In this document: piece after piece, positions 7,686-32,053 of the stretch
Layout of the letters: each line of letters opens with the position of its first letter
Numbering within the stretch: the stretch's first letter is position 1
Assembly (NCBI GenBank): GCA_943789425.1
Contig: CALSUB010000009.1
Span: 62,001-126,000 of the forward strand
Direction of reading: 5' to 3'
DNA: 64,000 nucleotides
Source of the DNA: an uncultured Luminiphilus sp.
Lineage (GTDB): Bacteria > Pseudomonadota > Gammaproteobacteria > Pseudomonadales > Halieaceae
The notes under the pieces: model-generated
Database searches by the model: none
Told to the model about the DNA's origin: nothing
The model's input: only the letters and a program-made list of their open reading frames with translations
Translations under genes and position numbers: made by a program

Positions 7686-8447
7686 TTAGAACTGAACGCG
7701 CTTGGTAAAGCCGCCATCAACCACCACATTGGTGCCTGTTGTCCATCCCGAACGCGGGCTGGCTAAGAAAGCCACGGTGTCCGCTATTTCATAATTGTCG
7801 CCCATTCGCCCCATGGGAATATTGGCAACGGTCGCATCGTAAAAATCGGTCATATGCGTTTTGATTTGCTCCCAGGCGCCGCCCTCAAAATAAACCGGTC
7901 CGGGGCTCACTGAATTCACGCGGATACCAGATCCTGCAAGGGCTTGCGCTAGATTGCTCGCATAATTTAAAAGCCCGGCTTTGATCGCGCCGTACGGGCT
8001 GGGGCCAGCGAAGGCTTCCACCGCCGCAGTGGTTGAAATCACCACGATGGCGCCCGAATCGGATTTTTCGAGATAGGGCTGGGTTAATTCTACGCCACGC
8101 CACGTTCCCATCATGTCGGATTCAAAGTTGGCGCGCCAGCCGGCCTCGCCATTGTCAGCGCCACCCGCCGAGACGTTGGGCACAAAGATATCGATGCCAC
8201 CGAGCGTCTCGGCACAGGCGTTGACCCATGCTTCAAGAGAGGCCGCGTCCGTCACGTCAACAACGCTACCGCAGGCCTTGACGCCTTTGCTGGTCAGTGA
8301 GGCGACCGTCTCATCAACCTCGGCTTGGTTGCGCGCACAGACGCCGATGTGGCAACCCTCATCCGCCAACGTTTCTGCAATGGCGCGACCAATGCCTTTG
8401 GTGGATCCAGTAATCAGGGCGACCTTATCTTTTAGTTGTAAATCCAT
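7686..8447 (-). CDS. SDR family NAD(P)-dependent oxidoreductase
   Basis: Classical short-chain dehydrogenase of 253 aa, predicted to oxidise or reduce an alcohol/ketone with NAD(P). It shows the cofactor motif TGSTKGIG near residue 14 and the catalytic YGAIK (YxxxK) preceded by VVISTTAA for the catalytic serine region. The usual NNAG block is replaced by PNVSAGG. The C-terminus has GTNVVVDGGF. ATG 8447 has AAGGAG upstream. It is last in a minus-strand operon behind two acyl-CoA dehydrogenases (27 bp gap), so a hydroxyacyl-CoA or ring-hydroxyl substrate in the same pathway is likely. The substrate is not known. Confidence 0.85.
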   Translation of the reverse strand: MDLQLKDKVALITGSTKGIGRAIAETLADEGCHIGVCARNQAEVDETVASLTSKGVKACGSVVDVTDAASLEAWVNACAETLGGIDIFVPNVSAGGADNGEAGWRANFESDMMGTWRGVELTQPYLEKSDSGAIVVISTTAAVEAFAGPSPYGAIKAGLLNYASNLAQALAGSGIRVNSVSPGPVYFEGGAWEQIKTHMTDFYDATVANIPMGRMGDNYEIADTVAFLASPRSGWTTGTNVVVDGGFTKRVQF

Positions 8448-8474
8448 AGCGTTTCTCCTTGTTAGTTAATGTCG

Positions 8475-9596: not shown

Positions 9597-9605
9597 GCTA
9601 GTACC

Positions 9606-10805
9606 TCAGAGCCCAAGCACATGCTTGGCGATGATGCTGCGCTGAATTTCTGCCGTACCGCCATAAATGGTGGTCGCTCGGCTGTTGATGTACTCCGCCA
9701 TAGTGGTCACCGATTCGCTGGCGGCAGCCGTGCTGCCGTTATAAGACGGCGCCAACACCTCGCTTTGCCACGGTATAGCACTCTGACCCGCGGCTTCAAT
9801 GAGCAACTCTGCACAGCGTTGTCCCAGCTCCGTGCCCGACACTTTGACAAGTGACGACAGTGCGCCCGGATTATCTCCAGCGGTCAGGCTACCTTTAATG
9901 CGCAGCTCAGTTTGTTCCAGTGCCATGACATCAATCTGTGTCTCGGCAACGCGGTAGGCGAAAGTGGGGTCAGCGGTCACGCGGCATGTCTCGCTCGACA
10001 TCATGTGTTGCATTTTGCTGAGCTGCTTTTTCAGATCGATCGTAAAGTGCTGCCCACCGCGTTCAAACTCAAGCAGCGATTTGGCTACTGTCCAACCTTG
10101 GTTTTCTTCCCCTAGCAGATTTGCAGTAGGCACGCGCACGTCTTCAAAGAAAACCTGACACTGCTCGACCTCACCGTCGAGGCTGGTGAAGGGTTTTACA
10201 GTAATCCCGGGTGTTGCCATATCGATCAACAAAAAGCTGATGCCGGCTTGGGGTTTGACAGCCTTGTCTGTGCGGACTAAACAAAAAATCCAGTCTGAGT
10301 AATGAGCCATACTGGTCCAGATTTTGGTGCCGTTGACAACGAAATCGTCGCCGTCATGGTCGGCTGTTGTTTTGAGAGAGGCCAGGTCTGAGCCAGATCC
10401 GGGTTCGGAATAGCCCTGACACCAAACGTTTTCGCCCGAAATGATGCCCGGTAAAAAACGTTCTTTTTGGCTTGGGGTGCCAAAATGCATCAGCATGGGT
10501 CCCAACATTTGAATGCCCATCATCACTGGGGTGGGGGCATTGGCCTGCCGACACTCTTCCTGAAAAATATAGCGCTGTTGAATGTCCCAACCTGTTCCGC
10601 CGTATTCTAGAGGCCAATCGGGTGCTCCCCATCCGCGCTGATGGAGAATAGATTGCCACTGGCGACCCGCTTCGAAGTCTGAGAAGACGCTAGTGGTGCG
10701 CTCACCTGCTCGAATTAATTCCGGTGTCAGTGCTTCACTCAAAAAATCTCTCACAGCAACGCGGAAGGCGTCAGAGTCCGTGGGTAAGGGGCTGGAAGCG
10801 TTCAC
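9606..10805 (-). CDS. Acyl-CoA dehydrogenase family protein
   Basis: Flavin-dependent acyl-CoA dehydrogenase, 399 aa from the GTG at 10805, which has AGAGGA upstream; the 28 residues the ORF adds before it are not family-like. Motifs: GWGAPDWPLEYGG, CQGYSEPGSGSDLASLKT (flavin/substrate loop), FVVNGTKIWTS, a helix-G LLEFERGG whose Glu is the likely catalytic base in this type, and a C-terminal YGGTAEIQRSII. It is first in the minus-strand operon with the second ACAD and the SDR. The promoter region upstream carries a shared palindrome (10944-10963). The substrate is unknown. Confidence 0.87.
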   Translation of the reverse strand: MNASSPLPTDSDAFRVAVRDFLSEALTPELIRAGERTTSVFSDFEAGRQWQSILHQRGWGAPDWPLEYGGTGWDIQQRYIFQEECRQANAPTPVMMGIQMLGPMLMHFGTPSQKERFLPGIISGENVWCQGYSEPGSGSDLASLKTTADHDGDDFVVNGTKIWTSMAHYSDWIFCLVRTDKAVKPQAGISFLLIDMATPGITVKPFTSLDGEVEQCQVFFEDVRVPTANLLGEENQGWTVAKSLLEFERGGQHFTIDLKKQLSKMQHMMSSETCRVTADPTFAYRVAETQIDVMALEQTELRIKGSLTAGDNPGALSSLVKVSGTELGQRCAELLIEAAGQSAIPWQSEVLAPSYNGSTAAASESVTTMAEYINSRATTIYGGTAEIQRSIIAKHVLGL

Positions 10806-10943
10806 ATTAGGTCCTCTACTGAAATCAGTTAGATAAGGATACACCTTGGTTGCCGAATTATCCGTGCGCCAGCAATACTGGGTGAGCACCCGAGGGTGTT
10901 TGTCAGCGGCCGATAACTATATAGTAGGCGTTACGGTTAAAAC

Positions 10944-10963
10944 AAACCAGCCTGCTTGTTTAT
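10944..10963. promoter_or_regulatory. Candidate TetR operator, site 1 (divergent ACAD promoters)
   Basis: The core AAACCAGCCTGCTTGTTTAT lies within a wider AAACAA...TTGTTT inverted repeat between two divergent acyl-CoA dehydrogenase genes. It agrees with the best site of the set (19119-19138) at 13 of 20 positions, including the GCTTG half-site. The role is inferred from recurrence in four promoter regions of the island. Confidence 0.5.
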
Positions 10964-11043
10964 CCCCTTTGCTTTTGCGCGTTTGCAATCGCGGATTGAC
11001 CACCACCCAGCGGCAACTTAATCCATTCAGAATGAGGTAGGAC

Positions 11044-12261
11044 ATGCTCAACCCCAGCGAGAAAAGCACTCAGATATTGGCTCAGTTGAAGGCATTTATG
11101 GCTGAGCACATCTACCCTAATGAAGTGCCCTATCGCACTGCTTTGCATCAGGCCGAAGATCGTTTTGCATCGATGCCGCTGATGGATGCGCTAAAGGGCA
11201 AAGCGAAGGCAGCGGGGTTGTGGAATCTCTTCGTACCGCCTGAATTCGCCGAATACAGCGATCACGGCGGCATGAGCTTCTTGGATTACGCCCCGCTGGC
11301 AGAGGAAATGGGGCGGGTGATCTGGTCCCCCGAGGTCTTTAACTGCAACGCACCAGACACGGGCAATATGGAAGTATTCATGAAGTTTGGCACCGAGGCG
11401 CAAAAGCGCGCTTGGTTAGAGCCGCTATTAGCGGGCGATATCCGTTCTTCTTACGCGATGACGGAGCCGCAAGTCGCCTCGAGCGACGCAACCAATATTG
11501 AGTTGCAGATTCGTCGCGACGGTGACGAGTGGGTCCTCAATGGCCACAAGTGGTTCATTACCGGCGCTCCCTACGAGCGCTGCAAAATTTTCATTGTCAT
11601 GGGTAAAAGTGACCCAGACAACGCCAGTCGGCACCTGCAGCAGTCGCAAATTCTGGTGCCGAAAGACACCCCCGGGGTGGATATTGTGCGTCCGCTGACG
11701 ACGCTGGGTTATGACGATGCGCCCATTGGGCACGCAGAGGTCACCTTTACCGATGTGCGGGTGCCCGTCGACAATTTATTGCTCGGGGAGGGCAGAGGGT
11801 TTGATATTGCACAAAGCCGCCTGGCGCCCGGAAGAATGCATCATTGTATGAGGCTGATTGGCGCGGGGCAGCGGTGTCTAGAGCTTGCGTGTCAGCGGGT
11901 CGAGGAGCGAGAGACGTTTGGTAAAAAACTGAGCGAGCACCAATCGATTCGAGAAAATATTGCCCGTAGCTACGCCGAGCTCGAAATGGCACGCCTTCTG
12001 GTGCATAAGACCTGCTGGCACATTGACACCCACGGCGTGAAGCCCTCGATTGAGCTGATTTCAGCCACTAAAATCACCATTCCAAAATTAATTCAGTACC
12101 TGATTGACCGATGCATGCAGATGTATGGAGCGGGTGGTCTCACTGAAGACTGGTGTATGGCGGAGCAGTTCAATTACGCACGCTGGTGCCGTCAGGCAGA
12201 TGGTCCTGATGAGGTGCATGAGATGGCCTTGGGCAAGCGAGTCATAAAACACTACGCGTAA
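11044..12261 (+). CDS. Acyl-CoA dehydrogenase (ACAD10/11-like)
   Basis: A 405-aa flavoprotein of the ACAD superfamily. It resembles the ACAD10/11-like branch: LWNLFVPPEF, NCNAPDTGNMEVF, YAMTEPQVASSDATNI, GHKWFITGA and a C-terminal GAGGLTEDW followed by RQADGPDEVH. That branch often acts on long or branched, sometimes hydroxylated, acyl-CoAs. ATG 11044 has GAGGTAGGA upstream. It is divergent from the other ACAD operon and is followed at 91 bp by an NTF2-like gene on the same strand. The substrate is not determined. Confidence 0.85.
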   Translation: MLNPSEKSTQILAQLKAFMAEHIYPNEVPYRTALHQAEDRFASMPLMDALKGKAKAAGLWNLFVPPEFAEYSDHGGMSFLDYAPLAEEMGRVIWSPEVFNCNAPDTGNMEVFMKFGTEAQKRAWLEPLLAGDIRSSYAMTEPQVASSDATNIELQIRRDGDEWVLNGHKWFITGAPYERCKIFIVMGKSDPDNASRHLQQSQILVPKDTPGVDIVRPLTTLGYDDAPIGHAEVTFTDVRVPVDNLLLGEGRGFDIAQSRLAPGRMHHCMRLIGAGQRCLELACQRVEERETFGKKLSEHQSIRENIARSYAELEMARLLVHKTCWHIDTHGVKPSIELISATKITIPKLIQYLIDRCMQMYGAGGLTEDWCMAEQFNYARWCRQADGPDEVHEMALGKRVIKHYA

Positions 12262-12352
12262 ATGGAGTCAGGGTTGTGCCCTGGCACTTAGCGGCCAGCA
12301 GCAACCGGCGTAGTAGAGCTTTGATAAAAAGTAATAAGGGGAGACCTTAACC

Positions 12353-12760
12353 ATGACAGATGATGAAAAGTTGGCCATTGTCGCCACACTTTACGCGAGC
12401 ACGGGCGCCGGAGATTTTGATACGGCGGAAGGGCTGTTGACCGACGATTTTTTTATTATCGAAGCTGAGGGGCTTCCCATGGCGGGGGAGTATCGGGGTA
12501 AGACAGCGCTTCGAGGCCTTTATGCGCATGTCTTTGGCACCCTAAAGGTGGCCGATTTGGAGCCCGAGGGTATGTCCGTGGGAGGGGATTATGTGGTGAA
12601 TTTAATCTCGTTTCGGTTTGAAAATCCTGATTTAGCGTCCGCTCAGCTGGCAGAGGTTTTCCGGTTCCGCGGCGACAAAGTGTGCGAGATTCGTCCCTAC
12701 TACTTCGATCCTAAGCCGATCGTTGATGCTTGGGCGTATTATAGCAACGCTGCCGACTAG
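12353..12760 (+). CDS. NTF2/SnoaL-like domain protein
   Basis: A 135-aa cytosolic protein with a cone-shaped NTF2-like fold expected from the pattern: N-terminal helix (ATLYASTGAGDFDTAEGLLTD), DDFFIIEA, a GEYRGKTALRGLY helix, then strands ending FRGDKVCEIRPYYFDP. Family members include ketosteroid-isomerase-like and small hydrolase or isomerase enzymes as well as non-catalytic proteins, so the reaction cannot be stated. Start ATG with AGGGGAGA upstream. It follows the ACAD gene and is followed by a hairpin with a TTCG loop. Confidence 0.65.
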   Translation: MTDDEKLAIVATLYASTGAGDFDTAEGLLTDDFFIIEAEGLPMAGEYRGKTALRGLYAHVFGTLKVADLEPEGMSVGGDYVVNLISFRFENPDLASAQLAEVFRFRGDKVCEIRPYYFDPKPIVDAWAYYSNAAD

Positions 12761-12768
12761 CCACAGAC

Positions 12769-12803
12769 AGCACGCGCGCCTTCGGGCTGGCGTGCTATCT
12801 TTT
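12769..12803 (+). terminator. Hairpin terminator after the ACAD/NTF2-like genes
   Basis: AGCACGC pairs with GCGTGCT, and an inner GCC/GGC closes a TTCG tetraloop with two mismatches between them. It is followed by ATCTTTTA. It sits 9 bp after the NTF2-like stop codon and before the convergent Rieske oxygenase. Confidence 0.65.
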
Positions 12804-12932
12804 AGGTGTGGTTTGTGACCTGTGCAGCTTTGTCCCTACTTCGATAGGCTGCTAGCGCTATCCTTCTAGCGCTGTAAAGGAGCAATCACCTCACCCTGAC
12901 ATCCGAGACATCAGGTCAGGGGGAGGTAGACC

Positions 12933-14315
12933 TCAGGCGTTCAAGTACTTGTCAATGGTCTGATGTAAGTGCCGTATCCGACTTTCTTGATAACTCGCGA
13001 GTACCACCTTGCCGGTTGCCGAGTTCTTCATGCCTTTTTGCACCGCCGGCAAATTGGCATCATCTTGGTCGAAGACGGGGCCGAGTGAGCCCAGTGCCTC
13101 GCAAGACGCGAAGGGTTCGTCCGCGGACAACACCGTGCAAGGCGCCGCCAGGGGACGCTCAGTGCCCTCTGGGTGACGCAGCAGGATCATGACCTCAAAA
13201 ATACAGCTGTCGGGATCGTTGCCGTTGGGCAAAAACTTATAAACGATATTGCCGCCGTAGCCTATCCACACCTGAAAGTTGGGAAACAGGCTATACAAAA
13301 TGGCGTCTTGCAGCTCAGCCATCGTCGGATCATCAAACGCTTCACCCGCGGCTTCTTCAAACATTTCCCGATTCATCTTAGCAACGTACTCGCGCGCTGA
13401 TTGATCAGTCGGCATGTCGACATTGGCGTCGCTGTCGGTGGCCATGCGACCGGAGAGCTTCAAAATGTCTCGCGTAATGGTTTCTTCGCTCACCTCGCTC
13501 AGGTGAGGGCTTGCGACCCCCATGGGCGTCGCAGATCGGCTGACATTATCGCCAAAGGTATCGTATTGAGAGTTTGCGTCACCGGTGAAGGTCAGAATTT
13601 GCTTGTGCGTCTCCACGGTGTGCCAGGACTCCATGAATGCTTCGGCCCCAACCTTCCAATTACAGTTCATGACCCGTTGCACGTGTACCGCTTTGAAGTA
13701 TTTCTCTAAGGGGAATCGCTCGAAATGCTGAGGCAATACATCCAAATAGTCTTCGAGGGGCTGGCACTCTAAGTCAAAGTTAATGAAAACGAAGCCTCCC
13801 CAAGTAGCGACTTTGACCTGTGGCAAACTCATATCGCGATCGGCGATGTGTTCAAAGTCCCAGTCGTTGGGGATGCCCTTGAACTGGCCATCGAGGTCCC
13901 AGGTCGCACCATGGAAGGGACAGCGAAACTTATCGACTGAGCCAGATTCATCACGCAAACATCGCCCTCGGTGCCGACAGGAGTTAATAAACCCTTTAAT
14001 CTCGCCTGAGGGCGTTCGCGTGACAATCACGCTGCGGTCGATGACCCAGTAGACAAAGTGATCACCGGACTCGGGGATGTCCTCTTCGCGACAGGCCATT
14101 TGCCACGTCTTAGGCCACAGTTTCTCTTTTTCTTCCTTGAAAAACTCGGGGCTGATATAGCGGTCTACCGATAAGTCTTCATCACCCATGTAAGGGTTGC
14201 TCTTGACTCTCAGGTACTCGGGAACCTCGACGGTCTCTAAGTCCAGCAGATCCTGCCAGGTCGTCCCGACAAAACGACCTCCATCGCCTTGTGTTTTTTG
14301 TTCAGCATGTGCCAT
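12933..14315 (-). CDS. Rieske ring-hydroxylating oxygenase, large (alpha) subunit
   Basis: A 460-aa non-haem iron oxygenase predicted to insert oxygen into a ring or alkyl carbon. The N-terminal Rieske [2Fe-2S] centre is seen as CRHRG followed after about 17 residues by CPFHG. The mononuclear iron site is in EAFMESWHTVETH (H-x4-H). No beta subunit is adjacent. The start ATG has AAGGGGAT upstream. It lies downstream of the DUF35-thiolase pair on the same strand (44 bp gap). Electron donors are not encoded next to it; the only ferredoxin in the island is at 22245. The substrate is unknown. Confidence 0.88.
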   Translation of the reverse strand: MAHAEQKTQGDGGRFVGTTWQDLLDLETVEVPEYLRVKSNPYMGDEDLSVDRYISPEFFKEEKEKLWPKTWQMACREEDIPESGDHFVYWVIDRSVIVTRTPSGEIKGFINSCRHRGRCLRDESGSVDKFRCPFHGATWDLDGQFKGIPNDWDFEHIADRDMSLPQVKVATWGGFVFINFDLECQPLEDYLDVLPQHFERFPLEKYFKAVHVQRVMNCNWKVGAEAFMESWHTVETHKQILTFTGDANSQYDTFGDNVSRSATPMGVASPHLSEVSEETITRDILKLSGRMATDSDANVDMPTDQSAREYVAKMNREMFEEAAGEAFDDPTMAELQDAILYSLFPNFQVWIGYGGNIVYKFLPNGNDPDSCIFEVMILLRHPEGTERPLAAPCTVLSADEPFASCEALGSLGPVFDQDDANLPAVQKGMKNSATGKVVLASYQESRIRHLHQTIDKYLNA

Positions 14316-14359
14316 CGTTTATCCCCTTAAAATTCGTGTTAGAGCAACCCTTGTCTGTT

Positions 14360-15502
14360 TTATCGCGTCAAGATATTAACGCCGCTTATTCCTGGAGCGC
14401 CGTAGACATGGGTATAGCCGACTTGCGGTTCCCCAGCTACCTGTCGCTCACCGGCATCGCCTCTTAATTGCATGCAAATCTCGTGAACTTGGCGGAGACC
14501 TGACGCCCCAACAGGCTCGCCATTTGCCAAACAGCCACCATCTGTATTGACCGGCAGTCTGCCATTAATATCGGTTGCGCCCTCTGCCAACCATTGCTCC
14601 TGCTCCCCGTGAGCACAGAAACCATTCTCAGCCATATGCATGATTTCCGCGCCCACCTCTGTGTCTTGCAGTTGAGCCACATCGATATCGCTGGGACCGA
14701 CGCCAGCCAGTTCAAATGCGGCGGTTGATGCTGTCACTGTGGGTGAGTCCGCGACCTCGGGAGGTTGCGATGGACTGAACACCTCGAAACTACCGTAGTT
14801 TCGCGAGCGGACGACGGCGGTTTTCAAATAGATCGGTTTGGGATGAAAGCGATGGGCAATGTCACTGCGGCAGACAACCAGCGCGCAACCACCCTCAGCG
14901 GGAGAGCAAAACATATATTTATTAAGCGGCTCGCTGACCATCGGCGCGTTATCGATTTCTTCCCAAGAGAGCGCGGTTTTCCGCCAGGCGGTCGGTGTCA
15001 GAGAGCCATTGCGATAGGCTTTCTCAGCAACACGGATCAGCGTTTCGCGGGAGATACCGTGATCATGCATGTAACGCTGAATCTTCATGCCAAAATACTG
15101 GGTGGTCAGCATCAATCCGGTTTCACCATACCAATCGTCTAACCCCCAATCTTTGGGTTTGGGGTTGAAGGCGCCGCGTGCGTGCTTATCAAATCCAACC
15201 ACCAGACCGACGTCGTATTGACCACTTTTAATCGCAGAGTAAGCCGCATTCAGTGAACTGCCCCCCGTCGCACAGCCGTTGGCGACGTTGGTGAATTGCA
15301 AGCCCGTCAGACCAAGTAGGTTGACCAAGCTGTCCGCGTTGCCACCGTCTTGACTCCCACCAAAGGCAAATTGCATGGCTTTGAAGTCGGTACCTGCATC
15401 AGCCAGTGCCGATCTGACGGCTGCCGCGCCTTGTTCTAGGCCTGACATGCTGGCGGTTCTTCCAAAGGGGTGTAATCCAACTCCAACGATTGCTACGTCC
15501 AT
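14360..15502 (-). CDS. Thiolase-fold lipid-transfer protein (SCP-x/Ltp2-like)
   Basis: A 380-aa thiolase-superfamily protein. It keeps a cysteine in NVANGCATGGSS at the thiolase nucleophile position. The C-terminal block is GGCLANGEPVGASG, with Glu where classical thiolases have the GHP histidine, and the end reads HVYGAPGISG. That pattern is typical of lipid-transfer-protein thiolases, including the Ltp2-type retro-aldolases of steroid side-chain degradation. Its start overlaps the stop of a DUF35 gene by one base, the partner required by such aldolases. Either thiolytic or retro-aldol cleavage is possible; the pairing makes the second attractive. Confidence 0.82.
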   Translation of the reverse strand: MDVAIVGVGLHPFGRTASMSGLEQGAAAVRSALADAGTDFKAMQFAFGGSQDGGNADSLVNLLGLTGLQFTNVANGCATGGSSLNAAYSAIKSGQYDVGLVVGFDKHARGAFNPKPKDWGLDDWYGETGLMLTTQYFGMKIQRYMHDHGISRETLIRVAEKAYRNGSLTPTAWRKTALSWEEIDNAPMVSEPLNKYMFCSPAEGGCALVVCRSDIAHRFHPKPIYLKTAVVRSRNYGSFEVFSPSQPPEVADSPTVTASTAAFELAGVGPSDIDVAQLQDTEVGAEIMHMAENGFCAHGEQEQWLAEGATDINGRLPVNTDGGCLANGEPVGASGLRQVHEICMQLRGDAGERQVAGEPQVGYTHVYGAPGISGVNILTR

Positions 15503-15936
15503 CAGTGACTCTCCTTGGCAGCGCAGAATTGAAATGTGAGCAACTCCTCACCGTCTCCGTTTTGCCGCACGGTAATCAGTTCCATCGTCATCGGCATGCC
15601 AATGCGCAATTGTTCTGGTGTGTTCTCGCGTAGCCGACTCTCTACCTTTAGCCCGCAAGCTAACTCAATATAACCCACCCCATAAGGGGTAAAGGTCTCT
15701 GGCGTCTCGTCAGTGTCATAGGGTGCTTTGGGCATGAAGGATTGAATCGTCCAGGTCCATAGTGTCCCCTCGCTTCCTAGATTAGCTGGGACCGTATTTT
15801 GACCGGAGCAGGCGCGGCAGGAACTTTGCGCCGGAAAAGCGTGCTCTCCGCAATCGAGACAGCGGCTGCCGATGAGCCCAGCGGCTGGATCCGGCCAATT
15901 AAACAGCCCTTCGTGGAGTGGTTTGGCTTCAGACAT
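15502..15936 (-). CDS. DUF35 / OB-fold protein with zinc ribbon
   Basis: A 144-aa protein with an N-terminal rubredoxin-like zinc ribbon (CLDC then CRAC, C-x2-C-x10-C-x2-C) and a C-terminal OB-fold expected to bind CoA thioesters. In steroid-degrading bacteria such proteins form complexes with lipid-transfer-protein aldolases (ChsH2-Ltp2 type) and with MaoC-like hydratases. The start is ATG 15936 with GGAG upstream; the ORF track's longer start at 15984 has no support. The stop overlaps the thiolase start by one base, so translation is probably coupled. It is first in the minus-strand operon, facing the divergent tetR gene. Confidence 0.87.
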   Translation of the reverse strand: MSEAKPLHEGLFNWPDPAAGLIGSRCLDCGEHAFPAQSSCRACSGQNTVPANLGSEGTLWTWTIQSFMPKAPYDTDETPETFTPYGVGYIELACGLKVESRLRENTPEQLRIGMPMTMELITVRQNGDGEELLTFQFCAAKESH

Positions 15937-16040
15937 GCGTGCTCCAATGATAATGCGGGCAGTGCCGAACCCCGTTGGCTCCAACGTTGCTATCTCACGG
16001 CCGCTGCTAACGATTCAGTCTAGGATATTGCGAATAAAAA

Positions 16041-16060
16041 AAGCAACCCGGATTGTTTGC
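16041..16060. promoter_or_regulatory. Candidate TetR operator, site 2 (tetR/DUF35 divergent promoter)
   Basis: The core AAGCAACCCGGATTGTTTGC, preceded by an A-run, has the inverted halves AGCAA and TTGCT. It lies in the 173-bp gap between DUF35 and tetR, 50 bp before the tetR start. It agrees with the best site at 12 of 20 positions. Autoregulation by the TetR protein is the natural reading. Confidence 0.5.
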
Positions 16061-16109
16061 TGAAGCGACGCGCCAGTGTGTAAGCTACTCCAGCTTAGAT
16101 GGGGGTTAC

Positions 16110-16826
16110 ATGGATTCACAGAACAGTCGCGGTACAGCGCCGGGCAAAGCGGGTCGTAAGACCACTAAACCTAAGTCTGCTCAGCGTGGCGCGCGGAAAA
16201 CAAGCATGGGTGCAGGATGGCAAGCGGAGAAGAGTGCGCTGACCCGTCAAGCCATATTAGAAGCCGCGGTCCGCTGCTTTGTGCAGCATGGCTATACCAA
16301 TACGACAACAGCGATGATCGCAGAGGAGGGAGATGTCTCCCGGGGTGCCATGATGCATCACTTTTCTTCGCGCGCCGCTGTCATGAGGGCGGTCGTGGGT
16401 TATTTGCATGTACGGCGGCTCAATGAGTATCGACAATTGATGAGTGACATTGACTCACCTGATCAGACGCTCACCCGGGCGGCGATCAGAACCTCGGTTG
16501 AGACGGCTTGGAAGTACGTCAACTTACCCTCCTTTATTGCGTACCAGGAACTCTTGGGTGCGGCCCGCACCGACCCCGAGTTGGCAAGCGCCGTTGACGA
16601 AGTTGAACAAGATTTTGATCGCGAGTTTTTAAAAACAGTGAGGGCCGTATTCCCTCACTGGAAGCAGGTCAAATCCCTAAGAGCCGCCCACGAGTTGGTG
16701 CAATTTGTGATGCAGGGGATGGGGGTCGCCCATCGTTCACCGCAACGCGAACAACGCGCTCGGCGGGTCATTGATACCGTGACCGACCATTTGGAAAAAA
16801 TATATGTGGCGGATACGGCGGATTAG
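16110..16826 (+). CDS. TetR/AcrR family transcriptional regulator
   Basis: A 238-aa repressor-type regulator. After a basic, low-complexity N-terminus of about 35 residues (GRKTTKPKSAQRGARK), the TetR helix-turn-helix is clear: TRQAILEAAVRCFVQHGYT, then DVSRGAMMHHFSSRAAVM. The C-terminal helices form a ligand pocket of unknown specificity. The start is ATG 16110; the TTG at 16053 used by the ORF track lies inside the candidate operator. It is the only transcription factor in the island and is placed centrally, so it is the best candidate to bind the four shared palindromes. The inducer might be a CoA thioester, as for KstR-type regulators; that is inference. Confidence 0.88.
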   Translation: MDSQNSRGTAPGKAGRKTTKPKSAQRGARKTSMGAGWQAEKSALTRQAILEAAVRCFVQHGYTNTTTAMIAEEGDVSRGAMMHHFSSRAAVMRAVVGYLHVRRLNEYRQLMSDIDSPDQTLTRAAIRTSVETAWKYVNLPSFIAYQELLGAARTDPELASAVDEVEQDFDREFLKTVRAVFPHWKQVKSLRAAHELVQFVMQGMGVAHRSPQREQRARRVIDTVTDHLEKIYVADTAD

Positions 16827-16889
16827 CGATCATTAACGGGGTGCGCTGCTTGATAAGGCCAAGAATCAATAAACGCGAAGGGGCGATGT

Positions 16890-17654
16890 ATGGGATTAGT
16901 AGACGGTAAGGTGTGTTTGGTGACGGGCGGCGCTTCCAATCCAGGTTTGGGGCACGCGATCGCGCACAAACTGGCGAGCGAGGGGGCTATCGTTATCGTG
17001 ACGGATGTCGATGGCGACGGCGCTGAGCGCACGGCCGCTGAAATCGTCGCGCAAGGTGGACAGGCGCAAGCCTGGGCACAGGATGTGACCGACGAGGCTC
17101 TGTGGGATCAGACATTAGATCGCATTCGCACTGAACACGGCAAAATCGACGCATTAATTAACAACGCCGGTATTGCAGTACTGAAAACATTGCCGGAACT
17201 CACGTTGGCAGACTACAACCGACAGCTGCTGGTCAATATGACGAGTGTTTTTTTGGGTACGCAAAAAGCGGTGGCATTGATGAGGGAAACGGGCGTGAAA
17301 GGGTCCATTATCAACATGTCCTCAGTCGCTGCGCTGGTGGGGGTCCCCGCTTGCAGCGCTTATGCCGCGGCAAAGGGCGGTGTCATCGGATTCACTAAAA
17401 CGGTCGCGTCCGAGACAGCCGCCGAGGGTATCCGCTGCAACACGATTCATCCCGGGCTCATCGATACCAATATGCAGCGGCAATCGTCCGTGGATAATCC
17501 AGAGGAGTACGTCAAATTAAATGCTGCGGTACCGATGGGATATATGGGGCCGCCACAGACTATTGCCGATGCTGCGCTCTTTTTAGTGTCGGACTTGTCG
17601 ACCTATATGACCGGTGCACAGATGGTCATCGATGGCGGTTTGATCAACCAATAA
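16890..17654 (+). CDS. SDR family oxidoreductase
   Basis: A 254-aa short-chain dehydrogenase. The cofactor loop is TGGASNPGLG, two residues longer than the usual TGxxxGxG, a variant seen in some SDRs. NNAG is present (LINNAGIAV), the catalytic triad shows MSSVAAL and YAAAKG, and the C-terminus has MVIDGGL. The start is ATG 16890 after AAGGGGCGATGT. It lies 64 bp after tetR and 27 bp before a SnoaL-like gene, so the three are probably one transcript. Likely oxidises a hydroxyl of a pathway intermediate; the substrate is unknown. Confidence 0.87.
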   Translation: MGLVDGKVCLVTGGASNPGLGHAIAHKLASEGAIVIVTDVDGDGAERTAAEIVAQGGQAQAWAQDVTDEALWDQTLDRIRTEHGKIDALINNAGIAVLKTLPELTLADYNRQLLVNMTSVFLGTQKAVALMRETGVKGSIINMSSVAALVGVPACSAYAAAKGGVIGFTKTVASETAAEGIRCNTIHPGLIDTNMQRQSSVDNPEEYVKLNAAVPMGYMGPPQTIADAALFLVSDLSTYMTGAQMVIDGGLINQ

Positions 17655-17681
17655 ATTTACCGATACGAGAGGTAGGGCAGT

Positions 17682-18089
17682 ATGAGTGACCAGAACCGCG
17701 AAGATGAGTTGGCTATCCGTTCGTTGTTAGAGCGGTATTGTGAGGGCGTTAATCAACGCGATGCGGCCGTGTGGGGCTCGACTTGGGCTGAAGATGCGGT
17801 CTGGGAGTTACCGCATTTGGGGATGGATGGTTTGAAGGGGCGCGACACCATCGTGGGCGCTTGGCTTGAGGCGATGAAGCTGTTCCCTTTTGTCAATATG
17901 ATGGCGATGCCGGGCATGATCTCGGTCGAACACGATCGCGCAACGATGCGCAGTTATACGGATGAGGTGGCCGTTACCGCAGACGGCTCTGAATTAAGGC
18001 CTCGTGGCCAGTATGACGATGAGCTCGTCAAAGTCGGCGGACACTGGCAGTTCAGTCGCCGTAAGTTTACGGTGCTGCACGGCGAGTGA
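17682..18089 (+). CDS. SnoaL-like (NTF2-fold) protein
   Basis: A 135-aa soluble protein. The N-terminus IRSLLERYCEGVNQRDAAVW, then WAEDAVWELP and GRDTIVGAWLEAM, is the signature of SnoaL_4-type NTF2-fold proteins, which include isomerases, dehydratases and small beta-subunit-like folds of ring-hydroxylating oxygenases. The C-terminal GHWQFSRRKFTVLH is also typical. Function unresolved. It is a second, different NTF2-fold protein in the island (the other at 12353), last in the tetR-SDR-SnoaL transcript, and converges on the next SDR with a 13-bp gap. Confidence 0.7.
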   Translation: MSDQNREDELAIRSLLERYCEGVNQRDAAVWGSTWAEDAVWELPHLGMDGLKGRDTIVGAWLEAMKLFPFVNMMAMPGMISVEHDRATMRSYTDEVAVTADGSELRPRGQYDDELVKVGGHWQFSRRKFTVLHGE

Positions 18090-18102
18090 ATGATGAAGTG
18101 GC

Positions 18103-18885
18103 TTAAACGCCGGGGAGACCGGCGGTTGAGCCACCATCGATGACAATCTCGGAGCCCGTGACAAAGCGGGCATCGTCCGAAGCTAGGTAGATCAGCAACG
18201 CCACTATCTCATCCATGCTCCCGAGCCGACCCAAGGGGGCAATACCTTCAAGCATTCCTCGCGCCGCCTCGGGGTCAGGCGCGCCTGAAATCGCCCCTTC
18301 GATTAACGGTGTTTCAATGACGCCCGGATGAATGGAGTTGCAGCGAATCCCGGTTTTCGTCTTAGCGAGGTGCACAGCGGTCGACTTAGCAAGCAATCTC
18401 AGGGCGCCTTTCGTGGTGGAGTAAGTGACATCGCCTGCCAGGGCTAAAATACCGTTGATAGAGCTGTTCAAAATGATTGAGCCGCCACTGTGGTCCGGAT
18501 TTTCTTTCATCAGTTCAATACTGGCCTTGATGGCCAGCATCATGCCTGTGAGATTAATATCCACTAAGTTTTTCCAGGCCTCTACCTCGACAGACTCGAT
18601 ATCACTGTCGCCCGTGTTAGTGCCCGCATTGGAGAAGGTAATGTCTAGCCGGCCTGCATGATCCCGCACCGCTTGCTTCACATCTGACCAGCCCTCAACA
18701 TCTTGCACCGCGTGCTGAATAAAGTGGGCGCCCGTTTCTTTTGCAATGTCATTACCCGCCACGCTGTTGTTGCCAGTGAAAATGACTTGCGCGCCCTCTT
18801 TTATCAGTCCGTGGACCGCTGCCTTGCCGATACCATTGGTGCCGCCAGTGATGAGGGCTACCTTGCCTTGAAGTCTTTCTGTCAC
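18103..18885 (-). CDS. SDR family oxidoreductase
   Basis: A 260-aa short-chain dehydrogenase with TGGTNGIG at the N-terminus, FSNAGTN in the NAG position, LNSSINGILAL and YSTTKGA at the active site, and GSEIVIDGGST near the end. It starts with GTG 18885 preceded by AAGGAG. It is a single minus-strand gene, divergent from the ABM-Rieske pair across a 380-bp gap that carries operator site 3. The substrate is unknown; a ring-hydroxyl dehydrogenase role is consistent with the neighbouring oxygenase. Confidence 0.87.
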   Translation of the reverse strand: MTERLQGKVALITGGTNGIGKAAVHGLIKEGAQVIFTGNNSVAGNDIAKETGAHFIQHAVQDVEGWSDVKQAVRDHAGRLDITFSNAGTNTGDSDIESVEVEAWKNLVDINLTGMMLAIKASIELMKENPDHSGGSIILNSSINGILALAGDVTYSTTKGALRLLAKSTAVHLAKTKTGIRCNSIHPGVIETPLIEGAISGAPDPEAARGMLEGIAPLGRLGSMDEIVALLIYLASDDARFVTGSEIVIDGGSTAGLPGV

Positions 18886-19118
18886 GGGTTGTCTCCTTAA
18901 CAGGATTGGTCGTTGCTATGGTCGGGTTTTAACCGCTTCCCTCGCTTGGTTCGCATCTCACCGGCAGGTTACGACGCAGCAGTTTCGGGAAAGTACCTCC
19001 TGTCGGCGCCTGGTAAGGGAGGGATATTGTTGCTTGGTCTGTGTCCAAATAGGCCTTACATGGCCCCTTTGTTTGTTCCAGAGTGTCTCGCGCCCAGATT
19101 AGGTTTGGCCACAGAAAA

Positions 19119-19138
19119 AAGCAAGCACGCTTGACTTT
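19119..19138. promoter_or_regulatory. Candidate TetR operator, site 3 (best copy)
   Basis: AAGCAAGCACGCTTGACTTT within a longer A-run/T-run context forms a near-perfect palindrome centred on CAAGC-AC-GCTTG. It lies in the 380-bp divergent gap (18886-19265) between an SDR and the ABM-Rieske genes, about 125 bp upstream of the ABM start. Its right arm contains TTGACT, a good -35 match, so a bound repressor would block a rightward promoter. The rest of the gap shows no gene. Confidence 0.6.
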
Positions 19139-19265
19139 TTCTTTGCTGATACATAGGTTGGAGGCTCAATTTCGACAGCCTCACTCATCACGATCGTATG
19201 ATGACAGGGGGCGTGAAAATAAGAACATAGAACCAACTTCAGACAGACACTCAGTGGGGAGAGAA

Positions 19266-19583
19266 ATGAGCACAGTTAGCGTTATTGTTCGCATTCAGCT
19301 AAGTGCTGAGAGTGCGCTTGGGTACGCGGAGGCTGCTAAGCCTGTCGTCGCGGCGACTCGGCAGGAGCCGGGTTGCCAGTGGTATGGTATCGCCGCCGAT
19401 GTTACCGATCCCTGCATCATTTGGGTGTCGGAGCAGTGGGCTTCACAGGCCGATTTAGACGCACATTTGAAGACAGCTCATGTTGCAGACTTTTTGAAGG
19501 CCTGTGCCGGGCTAGAGATACTTGATATGGAAGTGCGGCGTTATGAGGTTGCCTCAGTAGGCGATCTGGTGATGCCCGAATAA
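19266..19583 (+). CDS. Antibiotic biosynthesis monooxygenase (ABM) domain protein
   Basis: A 105-aa protein of the dimeric alpha/beta-barrel ABM superfamily: VSVIVRIQLSAESA, a helix EAAKPVVAATRQEPGC, IIWVSEQWASQADLDAHLKTAH and a final strand region. Members include cofactor-free quinol monooxygenases such as YgiN as well as non-catalytic proteins. The start is ATG 19266 with GGGGAGAG upstream; the longer ORF from 19083 runs through the operator and is not believed. It is 23 bp upstream of the Rieske oxygenase and probably cotranscribed with it. Confidence 0.75.
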   Translation: MSTVSVIVRIQLSAESALGYAEAAKPVVAATRQEPGCQWYGIAADVTDPCIIWVSEQWASQADLDAHLKTAHVADFLKACAGLEILDMEVRRYEVASVGDLVMPE

Positions 19584-19606
19584 TTACGCAGGCTGGGGAG
19601 CAAGCT

Positions 19607-20788
19607 ATGACTGTCGATACCAAAGTGCAATACGCCCGCATGGGTGCACGGCTGATTGATCATGTGAAAAACGGGACGACCGACTGGGCGGCCGACACCA
19701 TGGAAGTGCCGTCTACCAATTACACAGATCCAGATCAATGGCAGCGTGAAATGGATCAAATCTTCAAGGCGCAGCCCATTCTTGTGGGGATCTCCCAAGA
19801 AATTCCCGAGGCGGGCGACTTCAAGACCTTGAACATGCTGGGAGTGCCTTTACTCATCACCCGGCAAAAAGATGGCAGTGCCAAAGTGCTCATGAACGTC
19901 TGTACCCATCGCGGCATGCAATTAACCGCAGAGCCCTGCGGCAATCAAAGAATGTTCAGTTGCCCCTATCACGGCTGGACCTTTAAAGCGGATGGTTCAC
20001 TGCGAGCGGTGGCCGACGCCCCCAAATTCGGTGAGGTCTGCGAGGGCGCGCGTGATTTGGTGCAGTTTCCGAGCCATGAGGAGGGCGGATTGATCTTTGC
20101 GGTGTTAACGCCCGATAGCGATGTGGATATTCGGGCTTATTTGGGCGGCATGATGGACGACGTCGCTGCAAAGGGCATGGATCAGTGGACCTATGTGGGT
20201 AATCGAGTCATTCATGGACCTAATTGGAAAGTGGCCTATGACGGCTACCTCGAGGGCTACCACTTTAAGGCGGCGCATCCCGAGACCATCGAGCCCCGCA
20301 CTTACAGTAACGTCATGGAGTACGATGCACACGGGCCTCACCTGCTGGTTGGGTTTGCTGCTAAAACGATGATGACGTTAGGTGAAGTCGAGCAAAACGA
20401 GCTGTGGCAGCATGAAACCAGAGGCTATGACTTTATCCGATTGTTTTTCCCGAATGTCTCTATTTTCGTTGCGCCAGAAATCACCCAAGTGGCGCAAATG
20501 ATTCCCGGTCCCGGGCCCATGGAGAACACCACCATTCTGCATTTCTTGCATCCGAAGCCGCCAGAAAACGACGAAGATCAGGCCGCACGAATTGAAATGG
20601 CGGATTGGCTGCGCGATGTCGTACAAGAGGAAGATTACAACGTGGGTCTTAAGCTTCAAGAGGGGCTTGCGACGGGACTCATGAAAAGTGTGCTGTTGGG
20701 TCGCAATGAGCGCGGCAATCAATATTTTCACCGCTGGGTGCAGTGGTATGCCGATGGTGACGAGAACGCGCCAAAGCCAGAACTCTGA
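19607..20788 (+). CDS. Rieske non-haem iron oxygenase, alpha subunit
   Basis: A 393-aa oxygenase subunit. The Rieske centre is CTHRG followed by CPYHGW, and the catalytic iron site is in GYLEGYHFKAAHP (H-x4-H with a nearby acidic residue). Length and one-subunit organisation recall the alpha-only oxygenases such as ketosteroid 9-alpha-hydroxylase KshA, carnitine and choline monooxygenases; the substrate cannot be chosen among these. It needs a reductase or ferredoxin, and the Rieske ferredoxin at 22245 is the only candidate nearby. The start ATG has GGGGAG upstream. Confidence 0.87.
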   Translation: MTVDTKVQYARMGARLIDHVKNGTTDWAADTMEVPSTNYTDPDQWQREMDQIFKAQPILVGISQEIPEAGDFKTLNMLGVPLLITRQKDGSAKVLMNVCTHRGMQLTAEPCGNQRMFSCPYHGWTFKADGSLRAVADAPKFGEVCEGARDLVQFPSHEEGGLIFAVLTPDSDVDIRAYLGGMMDDVAAKGMDQWTYVGNRVIHGPNWKVAYDGYLEGYHFKAAHPETIEPRTYSNVMEYDAHGPHLLVGFAAKTMMTLGEVEQNELWQHETRGYDFIRLFFPNVSIFVAPEITQVAQMIPGPGPMENTTILHFLHPKPPENDEDQAARIEMADWLRDVVQEEDYNVGLKLQEGLATGLMKSVLLGRNERGNQYFHRWVQWYADGDENAPKPEL

Positions 20789-20961
20789 GGGGCAACCCTC
20801 AGGTTAAGTCGTTAGGTCGCGCCATCACCACTCGTTTTGTTTCAGGCGATCTTGCGTTTTGTGTTGGGTGACGGACGCGGGGCTAATAACAGTAGGCTGA
20901 TCGCAGTGGCAATAGGGTTGATGAGCCTGTCCGCCACCGGTTGGCGTCATTGCCTTAACCT

Positions 20962-21028
20962 CAATGCCCCAAAAGCCAATGCCCAAAAGCCAATGCCCCA
21001 AAAGCCAATGCTCAAAAACCCAATGCGC
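20962..21028. repeat. Short tandem repeat, about 4.5 copies of a 14-15 bp unit
   Basis: The unit CAATGCCCCAAAAGC is repeated with small changes: two exact copies, one lacking a C, one with CTCAAAAACC, then a partial CAATGCGC. It lies in the 290-bp gap between convergent Rieske and reductase genes. Translating it on the minus strand gives a HWLLG-type repetitive ORF, which I regard as spurious. A CCCCCCT...AGGGGGG hairpin follows near 21045-21070. Confidence 0.85.
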
Positions 21029-21078
21029 GATGGTTGTCGTTCGCCCCCCTCTGTATTCCTGCAGGGGGGGGGTAGGTC

Positions 21079-22089
21079 TCACAGCTTGAGCATTAATTTA
21101 CCGTCGTTACCCCCAGTAAACAGCAGATTGTAGGTATCGAGGCAGTTTTCAATGCCCTCGTTGATATGCTCTCTAAACTTGATTTTGTCTTCCTTGAGCC
21201 ATTGGCTCATCGCTTCCTGCCCCTCTACCACGCGATGGAAGTGATCACTGATCAGATAGCCCTTGACCGTGATGGTTTTGGCCAGAATTTGCCAATAGTT
21301 ATAGGGGCCTGGCACTGGCTCTGTGGCGTTGTAAGTACTGATGGTGCCGCAAAACAACAGTGTGGAGTCCTTATTCATATTGAGCAGTGCGGCGTCGAGA
21401 ATCTCTCCACCCACATTGTCAAAATAGAAGTCGACCCCCTCCGGACACTTCTCTCTAATCGCGGCCTCCATGTCATCCGTGGTGCGATAGTTGATGCAGT
21501 CATCGAAACCGAGTTCGTCCACGACCCACTGGCACTTTTCGTCTGTGCCGGCAATGCCGACCACTTTGAGCCCCATCAATTTGGCGATTTGTCCACCAAT
21601 CGACCCCACTGCACCCGCGGCCGCGCTCATCAGCATGGTTTGGCCTGCTTTGGCTTGGCCGACATCGACAATAGCAAAGTAGGGTGTGAGTCCCACTGCG
21701 CCCAACATGTTTACATAGTAGTGAAGTGGAAATTCACTGTCGCTCGCGATCTTCGTCCAAAACTCTGCTGGTGCGGTGCTATGTGTTTCCCAGCCGCCGA
21801 GTCCAAATACTAGGTCACCTGCCGCCAATTCATCGCTGCCGCTCTCTATGACCTCTCCGACCACGGTGGCTCTAATCGGGTCGCCTATAGGAATGGGTGG
21901 CAGATAGTTGGGGATATCCGACATCCAGAGACGGATCGCTGGGTCGAGTGAGATATAGTGGTTCTTCACCAAGACCATGCCAGCGGCAGTGTCTGGAATG
22001 GCGACTTCCTGGAACACGACTTCAGACGGATCGGGCACGTCTTGTGGACGCTTGGCCAGAATCCATTGCTGCTTATTACCCTGACTCAT
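21079..22089 (-). CDS. Zinc-free MDR enone reductase (CurA/PTGR-like)
   Basis: A 336-aa NADPH-dependent medium-chain reductase. The N-terminus has LAKRPQDVP, ISLDPAIRLWMSD and a GDLVFGLGGW segment; the nucleotide motif is SAAAGAVGSIGGQ; no structural- or catalytic-zinc cysteines are seen. The family (curcumin/prostaglandin reductases) reduces carbon-carbon double bonds of alpha,beta-unsaturated ketones. The start ATG has GAGG upstream. It is divergent from the ferredoxin-MDR-P450 operon and is the most distant of three paralogues in the island. The physiological substrate is unknown. Confidence 0.85.
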   Translation of the reverse strand: MSQGNKQQWILAKRPQDVPDPSEVVFQEVAIPDTAAGMVLVKNHYISLDPAIRLWMSDIPNYLPPIPIGDPIRATVVGEVIESGSDELAAGDLVFGLGGWETHSTAPAEFWTKIASDSEFPLHYYVNMLGAVGLTPYFAIVDVGQAKAGQTMLMSAAAGAVGSIGGQIAKLMGLKVVGIAGTDEKCQWVVDELGFDDCINYRTTDDMEAAIREKCPEGVDFYFDNVGGEILDAALLNMNKDSTLLFCGTISTYNATEPVPGPYNYWQILAKTITVKGYLISDHFHRVVEGQEAMSQWLKEDKIKFREHINEGIENCLDTYNLLFTGGNDGKLMLKL

Positions 22090-22147
22090 AAGGACCTCAT
22101 TATTTTGAGTTGCAAGAGCTGAAGAGACTAGCGATCACCTAAAAAAT

Positions 22148-22167
22148 AAGCAAGCATGATGGTTTTT
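22148..22167. promoter_or_regulatory. Candidate TetR operator, site 4 (ferredoxin/MDR divergent promoter)
   Basis: AAGCAAGCATGATGGTTTTT, with an A-run before and more T after, agrees with site 3 at 15 of 20 positions, including the complete left half AAGCAAGCA. It sits in the 155-bp gap between a minus-strand reductase and the plus-strand ferredoxin operon. Confidence 0.55.
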
Positions 22168-22244
22168 TTCGGGGTATCTGCGGTGCTACCCTTCATAACA
22201 GCGTTGAAACTGGCGCGGTAAAACAGCCAAAGGAGAGATGTGTA

Positions 22245-22556
22245 GTGACAGTCTTTGAGTCGGCTTTTGCCGATGACGAACTCGCGGATAACAAGAGCCG
22301 TGCTGTGACAATCAACGGGCAGAGCGTTCTTATTTGTCGAGCAGCGGGTGAATTATATGCCCTCGAAAACCGCTGTTCTCATCAAGAGGCAGAGTTAGAA
22401 GGCGGGCGAATACGCGGCTGCTTTATTTCTTGCCCGTTACATGGCGTGAGATTTGATTTGCGAGATGGTTCGCCCATGGGGCAGTTGACACGAGTGGCGG
22501 TACCGACCTTTGAGGTGCGGGTAGTCGATGGCATGATCGAAGTCGCGGTCCCTTGA
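22245..22556 (+). CDS. Rieske-type [2Fe-2S] ferredoxin
   Basis: A 103-aa electron carrier. The cluster ligands are CSH and CPLHG about 18 residues apart, with GVRFDLRDG after them, as in the BphF/CarAc-type small ferredoxins. It starts with GTG 22245, preceded by AAAGGAGAG. It is the first gene of a tight operon with a CurA-like reductase (9 bp) and a P450 (3 bp). It could donate electrons to either Rieske oxygenase of the island, or unusually to the P450. No ferredoxin reductase is encoded nearby. Confidence 0.9.
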   Translation: MTVFESAFADDELADNKSRAVTINGQSVLICRAAGELYALENRCSHQEAELEGGRIRGCFISCPLHGVRFDLRDGSPMGQLTRVAVPTFEVRVVDGMIEVAVP

Positions 22557-22565
22557 GGTGAGTTT

Positions 22566-23570
22566 ATGACGCGTGCAGTGGTATTAGCTCGGCACCCTGA
22601 AGGTGCGGTATCAGAGCAAGATTTTGAGGTGATCGAGATGCCGGTGGGTGATTGCCCTGCCGGTTATTTTCGTACGCGTAACCGAGTGATCTCCCTAGAC
22701 GCCGGATTCCGGCAGTGGATGACCGCCGGTGCAGGCGATAATTATTTAACGGGTATGCAGGTGGGTGACCCCGTCCAAAGTATTGTGCTGGGCGAGGTGA
22801 TTGAATCTCATCATCCGGATTACCCCGTCGGGTCCTTTGTCAGCGCTCGCACCGCCTGGGAAGAGTCCAGTGTGCTGGATGGTTCAGATCTCTGCTCGGC
22901 ATTGATCGTCGACGAGAAAATTCCGCTTTATCAGTATATGGGGATCTTAGGGCCAACGGGCATGACAGCCTGGGTGGGTCTGTATGAGATTGGACGGCCC
23001 AAACCGGGAGAGACGATTGTCGTGAGTGCTGCTGGCGGCGCGGTGGGCACGGTGGTAGGCCAATTGGCGAAGTCTGAGGGTTGCCGAGTGATTGGGTTAA
23101 CCAGCACCCGAGAGAAAGCGCAGTGGCTGGAGACGGAAGTGGGTTACGACCGGGTCATTGACCGTGAAACGCAACCGCATCTGGCTAACGCATTATCCGA
23201 GGTGGCTCCGGAAGGGATCGATATCTTTTTCGATAATGTGGGCGGAAACGCCCTCAATGTTGCCATGGGCCAGCTTCGAGAGCAGGCGAGACTCGTGCTC
23301 TGTGGCGCCATTTCGCAGTATGAATCTGCCGTGGAGCCGTTAACGAATAGTTGGGAGCTGATTACGAAGCGCGCAAAAATGGAAGGCTTTATGTTCTCAG
23401 ATTACGTTGAGTCCTTTCCCGCCATTGCGGAGGATATTAGGGCGCGGCTTGACCGGGGTGAGGTGAAAAGCTTCGATGCGGTTTATCATGGCATTGAGCA
23501 AACACCGCGCGCGTTTTGCGACATGATGCATGGTGTCTCTCGCGGCAAATGTTTAGTGACTTTGGATTAA
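22566..23570 (+). CDS. Zinc-free MDR enone reductase (CurA/PTGR-like)
   Basis: A 334-aa NADPH-dependent medium-chain reductase with ISLDAGFRQWMTAG, MGILGPTGMTAWVG, the nucleotide motif SAAGGAVGTVVGQ and FFDNVGG. It is clearly closer to the paralogue at 24978 (both have ISLDAGFR.WM and DGSD) than to the one at 21079. Predicted to saturate an alpha,beta double bond next to a carbonyl. It lies between the ferredoxin and the P450 in one operon, so the P450 product may be its substrate source; that is inference. Confidence 0.85.
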   Translation: MTRAVVLARHPEGAVSEQDFEVIEMPVGDCPAGYFRTRNRVISLDAGFRQWMTAGAGDNYLTGMQVGDPVQSIVLGEVIESHHPDYPVGSFVSARTAWEESSVLDGSDLCSALIVDEKIPLYQYMGILGPTGMTAWVGLYEIGRPKPGETIVVSAAGGAVGTVVGQLAKSEGCRVIGLTSTREKAQWLETEVGYDRVIDRETQPHLANALSEVAPEGIDIFFDNVGGNALNVAMGQLREQARLVLCGAISQYESAVEPLTNSWELITKRAKMEGFMFSDYVESFPAIAEDIRARLDRGEVKSFDAVYHGIEQTPRAFCDMMHGVSRGKCLVTLD

Positions 23571-23573
23571 TCG

Positions 23574-31966: not shown

Positions 31967-32053
31967 GGATATTTGCCTCTGAAACACCATTTTCTGAAAG
32001 ATTTTTTACCGACCCAATCGTCACATGAGCTAATTCTCGTTTTTAGGGCTCAA

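Follow-up and report, generated by a model that had tools for sequence, protein, structure and literature searches.

Four conserved palindromes in a Luminiphilus catabolic island as predicted operators of a single TetR-type repressor

Which regulator, if a single one, controls the catabolic island found in a 64-kb stretch of DNA from the genus Luminiphilus (Halieaceae)? This stretch, hereafter the window (G000:C9:62001-126000), belongs to a metagenome-assembled genome (MAG; 1.70 Mb, 80% complete) whose closest named relatives are uncultured Luminiphilus. The island spans ~7.7-26 kb of the window. Its genes encode acyl-CoA dehydrogenases, a thiolase of SCP2/Ltp type and the OB-fold protein that partners it, a P450 resembling CYP101, two Rieske oxygenases, a Rieske ferredoxin, and several oxidoreductases of the ADH_N_2 and short-chain dehydrogenase/reductase (SDR) types; a single tetR gene is also present. 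A preliminary description of the window had proposed, by eye, that a palindrome recurring in four divergent intergenic regions places the whole pathway under one regulator. The motif was observed directly, as were its statistics, conservation, target genes and co-occurrence with tetR; from this we infer that the TetR-type repressor encoded at 16110-16826 has the four palindromes as its operators, and that this one protein would repress the whole island, with a probability of roughly 0.88. The predicted operators are the following:

16041..16059, + strand: operator AAGCAACCCGGATTGTTTG, separating tetR from the OB/thiolase/Rieske operon; third in the window with 22.6 on the matrix
10939-10957, - strand: operator AAGCAGGCTGGTTTGTTTT (1 mismatch), part of 10939..10961, between the acyl-CoA dehydrogenases 9606-10889 (-) and 11044-12261 (+)
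10944-10961: second register AAACCAGCCTGCTTGTTT, overlapping operator 10939
19119..19137, + strand: operator AAGCAAGCACGCTTGACTT, between the SDR 18103-18885 (-) and the ABM/Rieske operon; rank 5 in the window
22148..22166, + strand: operator AAGCAAGCATGATGGTTTT, between the ADH_N_2 oxidoreductase (ADH) 21079-22089 (-) and the Rieske ferredoxin/ADH/P450 operon; rank 2 in the window

All four cores were found where they had been described (10944, 16041, 19119 and 22148), each between divergent genes, and the reported agreement of 12-15 of 20 positions with site 19119 was reproduced by hand count (15 for 22148, 13 for 10944 and 12 for 16041). The site placed 50 bp upstream of tetR indeed ends at that distance (16041-16059) from the likely ATG at 16110. 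The symmetry noticed by eye corresponds to a common core, the 18-bp pseudo-palindrome AARCAANCnnGnTTGYTT, defined from the sites preceding tetR orthologues of other species, in which the CAAG-/CTTG-type halves are separated by 4 bp in all sites. Two registers offset by 4 bp (10940 and 10944) overlap within 10939-10961, and they rank 4 and 1 in the window, respectively. A mechanically called open reading frame (ORF) overlapping site 19119 (GTG 19083) was considered over-extended, because homology in relatives begins downstream of the site. In the region 5′ of tetR, AAAAAAAGCAAGCnnG[AT]TTGTTT was kept among 25 genus relatives and the window genome with few single-letter exceptions, and in other families the motif upstream of tetR becomes AAACAATCnnGATTGTTT and similar.

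It was asked whether A/T-flanked palindromes could resemble one another by chance to this extent. A symmetric matrix was built from 27 tetR-upstream sites of other species, leaving out the window genome and its 91% sister, and the five best positions of the window were 10944 (24.5 bits), 22148 (23.5), 16041 (22.6), 10940 (20.5) and 19119 (12.5). In 200 Markov-simulated 64-kb windows, the mean maximum was 11.3 (standard deviation 3.3) and the highest 21.0, so that three of the four sites exceed every null maximum, and only 19119, taken alone, lends itself to a chance explanation. The matrix scan covered the window and the relative loci, and genome-wide counts were obtained by pattern search. 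The whole-genome scan proposed in the preliminary description returned, for pattern AAGCAAGCNNGNTTGNTTT at up to two mismatches, the four sites and only two matches outside the island (C1:216168 and C9:6682), although this pattern was picked after the sites had been seen, which slightly favours them. Both additional matches look like chance and were rejected as regulon members: a relative with 96% identity does not retain the former, and the latter lies inside a coding frame.

The comparison of orthologous intergenic regions, also proposed at that stage, revealed sites at the same four positions in 20 relative loci; conservation of these positions extends over about 20 species. The 16041 operator occupied the same position in 21/21 compared genomes and the 22148 operator was present in 18/18; the 10939 operator was found with at most two mismatches in nine relatives and scored at least 18 on the matrix upstream of the acyl-CoA dehydrogenase gene in every near-clade locus holding that gene. 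Site 19119, despite its low matrix score, was the best conserved between species: among 21 genomes, 17 of 19 site columns of its class were invariant, against 13 of 100 flanking columns, these being mostly A/T-tracts and a putative -10. Throughout the 20 relative loci (400 kb), 44 clusters scoring at least 18 fell at the four positions and five elsewhere. All five also precede regulon-type genes: one is a class site unlisted beforehand (L039), three stand before a ferredoxin gene in the acyl-CoA-dehydrogenase region of a distant clade (L048, L050, L051), and the remaining one lies where an SDR gene belonging to the same cluster begins (L053). Island genes that are not first in their operon had no site, and the internal controls (SDR16890, P450, ADH22566, thiolase and Rieske12933, none with its own site) remained mostly at background score. 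Conservation in about 20 species alone refutes a chance resemblance, and with the genome-wide, matrix and phylogenetic tests all pointing the same way its probability is practically negligible.

If the palindromes are genuine operators, it must still be decided which protein would bind them. The island Rieske gene is present in 29/57 genus genomes. A scan of these 57 genomes at up to one mismatch yielded 94 matches, versus seven for the reversed pattern; 86 of the 94 fell in the 29 genomes with the Rieske gene (at least one site in 29/29) and eight in the other 28 together, one of which (G032) is an island fragment. The matches in the island-less genomes G027, G008, G048 and G013 lie in open coding frames and were set aside as background, and those at G053:C1:1459674 and G007:C50 were not convincingly placed before a target. 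Moreover, the motif tracks tetR across the 57 genus genomes and other gammaproteobacterial families, and in alphaproteobacteria it does so with identical geometry. There, exact copies of AANCANNCNNGNNTGNTT, a match that shuffled sequences essentially never give, precede many TetR genes of 35-40% identity (Novosphingobium, Croceicoccus, Sphingobium, Marinicaulis, Hellea and others). Since the geometry is kept at this level of TetR identity, the site goes with the regulator and not with the species. That it does so over such a distance is, among the computational results, the strongest indication that this TetR would be the binder.

Some Novosphingobium loci carry two tetR paralogues (L170 6080, L172 6131, L177 4590, L178 4631), of which the second has AAACATGCTTGCATGCTT, or a sequence one letter off, upstream. 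This looks like the same operator geometry in diverged form.

The four palindromes could be operators of another regulator, whose gene lies elsewhere and for which tetR is only one of the targets, and it is true that tetR adjoins just one of the four sites and that other weak TetR homologues exist in the genome. However, in other families and in the alphaproteobacteria alike, the operator geometry stays with the tetR orthologues even where the neighbouring genes differ, and genus genomes without tetR and the island show only background matches, which makes this explanation improbable. The proposal of one regulator for the whole pathway thus gained support from the chance, whole-genome and orthologous-region tests, with TetR as its predicted binding protein. 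This protein has the following features:

16110..16826, + strand: regulator of the tetR family; 238 aa if translation begins at the likely ATG, in an ORF running from TTG 16053

The helix-turn-helix domain TetR_N (PF00440) was detected with E=2.9e-14 from ATG 16110 and 3.5e-14 for the whole ORF, and was present in 28/28 aligned members; no Pfam C-terminal family scored above its cut-off in the window TetR. Orthologues in 25 genus relatives share about 56-91% identity, and the recognition helix SRGAMMHHF is invariant in the aligned orthologue set. The AlphaFold2 model is all-helical (pLDDT 84.8) and its Foldseek matches are TetR proteins, the best being EthR2 (E=2.8e-6). This is the only tetR gene of the island, other matches in the MAG being weak paralogues, and a conserved palindrome, its putative operator, lies beside tetR itself.

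The position of the half-sites suggests how repression might be exerted. Candidate promoters, whose -35 and -10 assignments rest on conservation, were placed as follows:

16017..16022, - strand: candidate -10 TAGACT, 18 bp from TTGCTT (16041-16046) as -35, towards the OB/thiolase/Rieske operon
19154..19159, + strand: candidate -10 TAGGTT in a conserved TAG block, 17 bp from TTGACT (19131-19136) as -35, towards ABM/Rieske
19096..19101, - strand: candidate -10 TAATCT in a conserved block, 17 bp from TTGCTT (19119-19124), towards SDR 18103
22125..22130, - strand: candidate -10 TAGTCT in a conserved CTA block, 17 bp from TTGCTT (22148-22153), towards ADH 21079
10916..10923, - strand: candidate -10 TATATA/TATAGT, 16-18 bp from TTGTTT (10940-10945), towards acyl-CoA dehydrogenase 9606

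The block around the 16017 candidate (AGTCTAGGATA / GATACTAGRAA) is conserved in relatives and lies below the consensus of a strict sigma-70 scanner, and that of the 10916 candidate (TACTATATAGT) is kept in the 10 aligned genomes. Site 19119 deviates from the palindrome, with GACTT in place of TGTTT; this deviation is conserved throughout and creates a good -35. These arrangements, in which half-sites coincide with -35-like TTGCTT or TTGACT located 16-18 bp from TAGnnT-like blocks, could also mean that the palindromes are nothing but conserved parts, namely -35 regions plus A-tracts, of promoters of a single type. Yet both half-sites and the fixed central CnnG are conserved, far beyond what a -35 needs, other promoters of the island and genome lack the motif, and the motif co-occurs with tetR, leaving this explanation very improbable.

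Under the preferred reading, that of TetR operators, the -35-like half-sites suggest repression by promoter occlusion. A TetR dimer would bind the 18-bp AARCAANCnnGnTTGYTT between each divergent gene pair and would cover the -35 of one or both promoters, and RNA polymerase would be kept off because the half-sites coincide with the -35 region. In this way, one TetR would repress the whole island and presumably itself. Release would be brought about by a pathway intermediate, most likely an acyl-CoA of a polycyclic or terpenoid-like substrate; this ligand class is a guess based on the acyl-CoA chemistry of the targets and on the ligands of KstR and KstR2, which are CoA thioesters (PMC8700777).

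Several observations weigh against the assignment of all four sites to a TetR repressor. First, site 19119 reaches only 12.5 on the independent matrix and by itself stays within the null range. Second, acyl-CoA dehydrogenase 11044 lacks a site immediately upstream in a remoter Luminiphilus clade; there the operator precedes a ferredoxin gene located before this gene. Third, the far tetR homologues at L160-L162, L167, L174 and L176 lack such a site upstream. Fourth, a strict sigma-70 scan of window positions 10800-22300 found 0 promoters, against 8.7 +/- 3.0 in shuffled sequences, so that the island promoters are either unusually distant from the sigma-70 consensus or depleted. Finally, TetR may act as an activator instead.

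The genes expected to respond to TetR are listed below:

7686..10889, - strand: predicted target operon adjoining operator 10939; an SDR together with acyl-CoA dehydrogenases of pimC/pimD or FadE26-like type, the first gene probably starting at ATG 10807
11044..12261, + strand: predicted target, acyl-CoA dehydrogenase
12933..15984, - strand: predicted target operon; Rieske oxygenase alpha subunit, SCP2/Ltp-type thiolase and OB-fold (ChsH2_C) partner
16890..17654, + strand: predicted target, SDR downstream of tetR, without its own operator in 20 loci
18103..18885, - strand: predicted target, SDR
19198..20788, + strand: predicted target operon; ABM-domain protein and Rieske oxygenase
21079..22089, - strand: predicted target, medium-chain (ADH_N_2) oxidoreductase
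22245..24782, + strand: predicted target operon; Rieske ferredoxin, ADH_N_2 oxidoreductase and CYP101-like P450

In relatives, the regulon appears to extend further. The outlying sites (at most one mismatch) of Luminiphilus syltensis and genome G040 stand before TonB-dependent receptor genes, and among orthologues of the first receptor from 18 other genomes the palindrome was found upstream, at up to three mismatches, in 19/20 loci. TonB receptor genes with an operator outside the island or at its edge were recorded at L185 1394-3739 (-) and L199-L218, and the receptor gene G053:C1:2187396-2189738 is among the predicted targets; no orthologue at E<=1e-100 was found in the window's own genome. 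Several lineages, including L. syltensis and Zhongshania, carry an extra operon between the OB/thiolase genes and tetR, which in L. syltensis (L124 4847-9766) encodes a complete 2-oxoacid dehydrogenase complex (E1 alpha, E1 beta, E2 and E3). ORFs of the same size occur in Zhongshania (L139), and in the window's clade this operon is absent from this spot and the OB gene adjoins the operator. Relatives also hold an acyl-CoA ligase gene between the 10939-type operator and the acyl-CoA dehydrogenases. All three (2-oxoacid dehydrogenase operon, TonB receptor and acyl-CoA ligase genes) are missing from the window's island. A second ferredoxin/ADH-type gene copy with its own operator was seen on another contig of genome G046 (L078, G046:C42), reflecting duplication or strain mixture.

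Concerning the substrate, one island acyl-CoA dehydrogenase has as its best solved-structure match 4x28, an acyl-CoA dehydrogenase, which we take to be the FadE26/FadE27 enzyme of M. tuberculosis acting in steroid side-chain degradation. A 9,10-seco steroid pathway, with its KshA-type Rieske oxygenase, was considered: the best structure matches of the two island Rieske proteins are dioxygenase and carnitine-oxygenase structures, and none named KshA was obtained at E<=1e-5. The substrate may be a steroid, and a terpenoid- or steroid-like compound is our guess. Halieaceae have been reported as steroid degraders (PMC5790920), and a search of open-licence papers returned nothing on steroid degradation in Luminiphilus.

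Outside the island, nrdA (large subunit of class I ribonucleotide reductase; window 29079-31990, - strand) is split into two ORFs, its protein continuing piecewise in other frames at ~30.1-30.4 kb. This resembles a series of single-base indels, due to sequence or assembly error, more than an insertion.

For coastal bacteria that are abundant yet little studied, the outcome is a catabolic island with a predicted regulator, a predicted operator and a list of predicted genes. Conservation of the operator makes it a means of gathering pathway genes located elsewhere in some species, such as those for the acyl-CoA ligase, TonB receptor and ferredoxins. A cultivated strain, L. syltensis NOR5-1B, carries the same regulator. 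Tentatively, and with somewhat less than even confidence, the TetR lineage with the AAnCAnnCnnGnnTGnTT operator might be a broadly distributed master switch of one uncharacterised steroid- or terpenoid-like pathway in abundant marine gammaproteobacteria (Luminiphilus, SAR92/HTCC2207, HTCC2080, Zhongshania) and sphingomonads; if so, a genome scan for the operator would delimit the whole pathway, TonB uptake receptor included.

TetR control of a whole pathway is a conventional design, and its mode of action would not surprise a specialist, in what is apparently an undescribed regulon: no paper on this regulator was found in the open-licence literature, including work on regulators of Zhongshania, SAR92/HTCC2207 and Chol11. 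The closest solved folds, also among the best sequence matches, are the mycobacterial TetR proteins EthR2 and Rv0078, with which identity over the fold is only ~20-23% and similarity lies mainly in the DNA-binding domain; we know of no regulon shared with them. EdcR, which governs estradiol degradation in Caenibius tardaugens, is likewise a TetR repressor of a catabolic cluster whose palindrome overlaps promoter elements and is conserved in a relative, but its operator TnnCnnTACnAnTnGTAnnGnnA is unrelated and overlaps the -10 rather than the -35 (PMC8700777). The resemblance to KstR2 pointed out in the preliminary description is correct as to sequence, CAAG-4-CTTG here against the KstR2 motif AnCAAGnnCTTGnT with its 2-bp spacer, as in the M. 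smegmatis site TACCAAGCAAGTGCTTGCTTAGGT (PMC3068626), and no other link between the protein and KstR2 emerged: the best NCBIfam, PDB and Foldseek matches listed for TetR (best 60 and 50) do not include KstR2. Membership in KstR2 was rejected on the operator spacer, which is 4 bp in all sites (CAAGCnnGnTTG), and the class of organism and the gene set also differ. As in the KstR2 regulon of mycobacteria and rhodococci, which serves lower cholesterol degradation and has HIP-CoA as ligand of its repressor, a TetR protein is paired with a palindrome of half-site AAGCAAG/CTTGCTT that occupies a small number of divergent promoters within a single catabolic cluster. Given the 2-bp difference in spacer and a protein without particular similarity among the matches listed, the regulator described here would work like KstR2 without being classed as KstR2.

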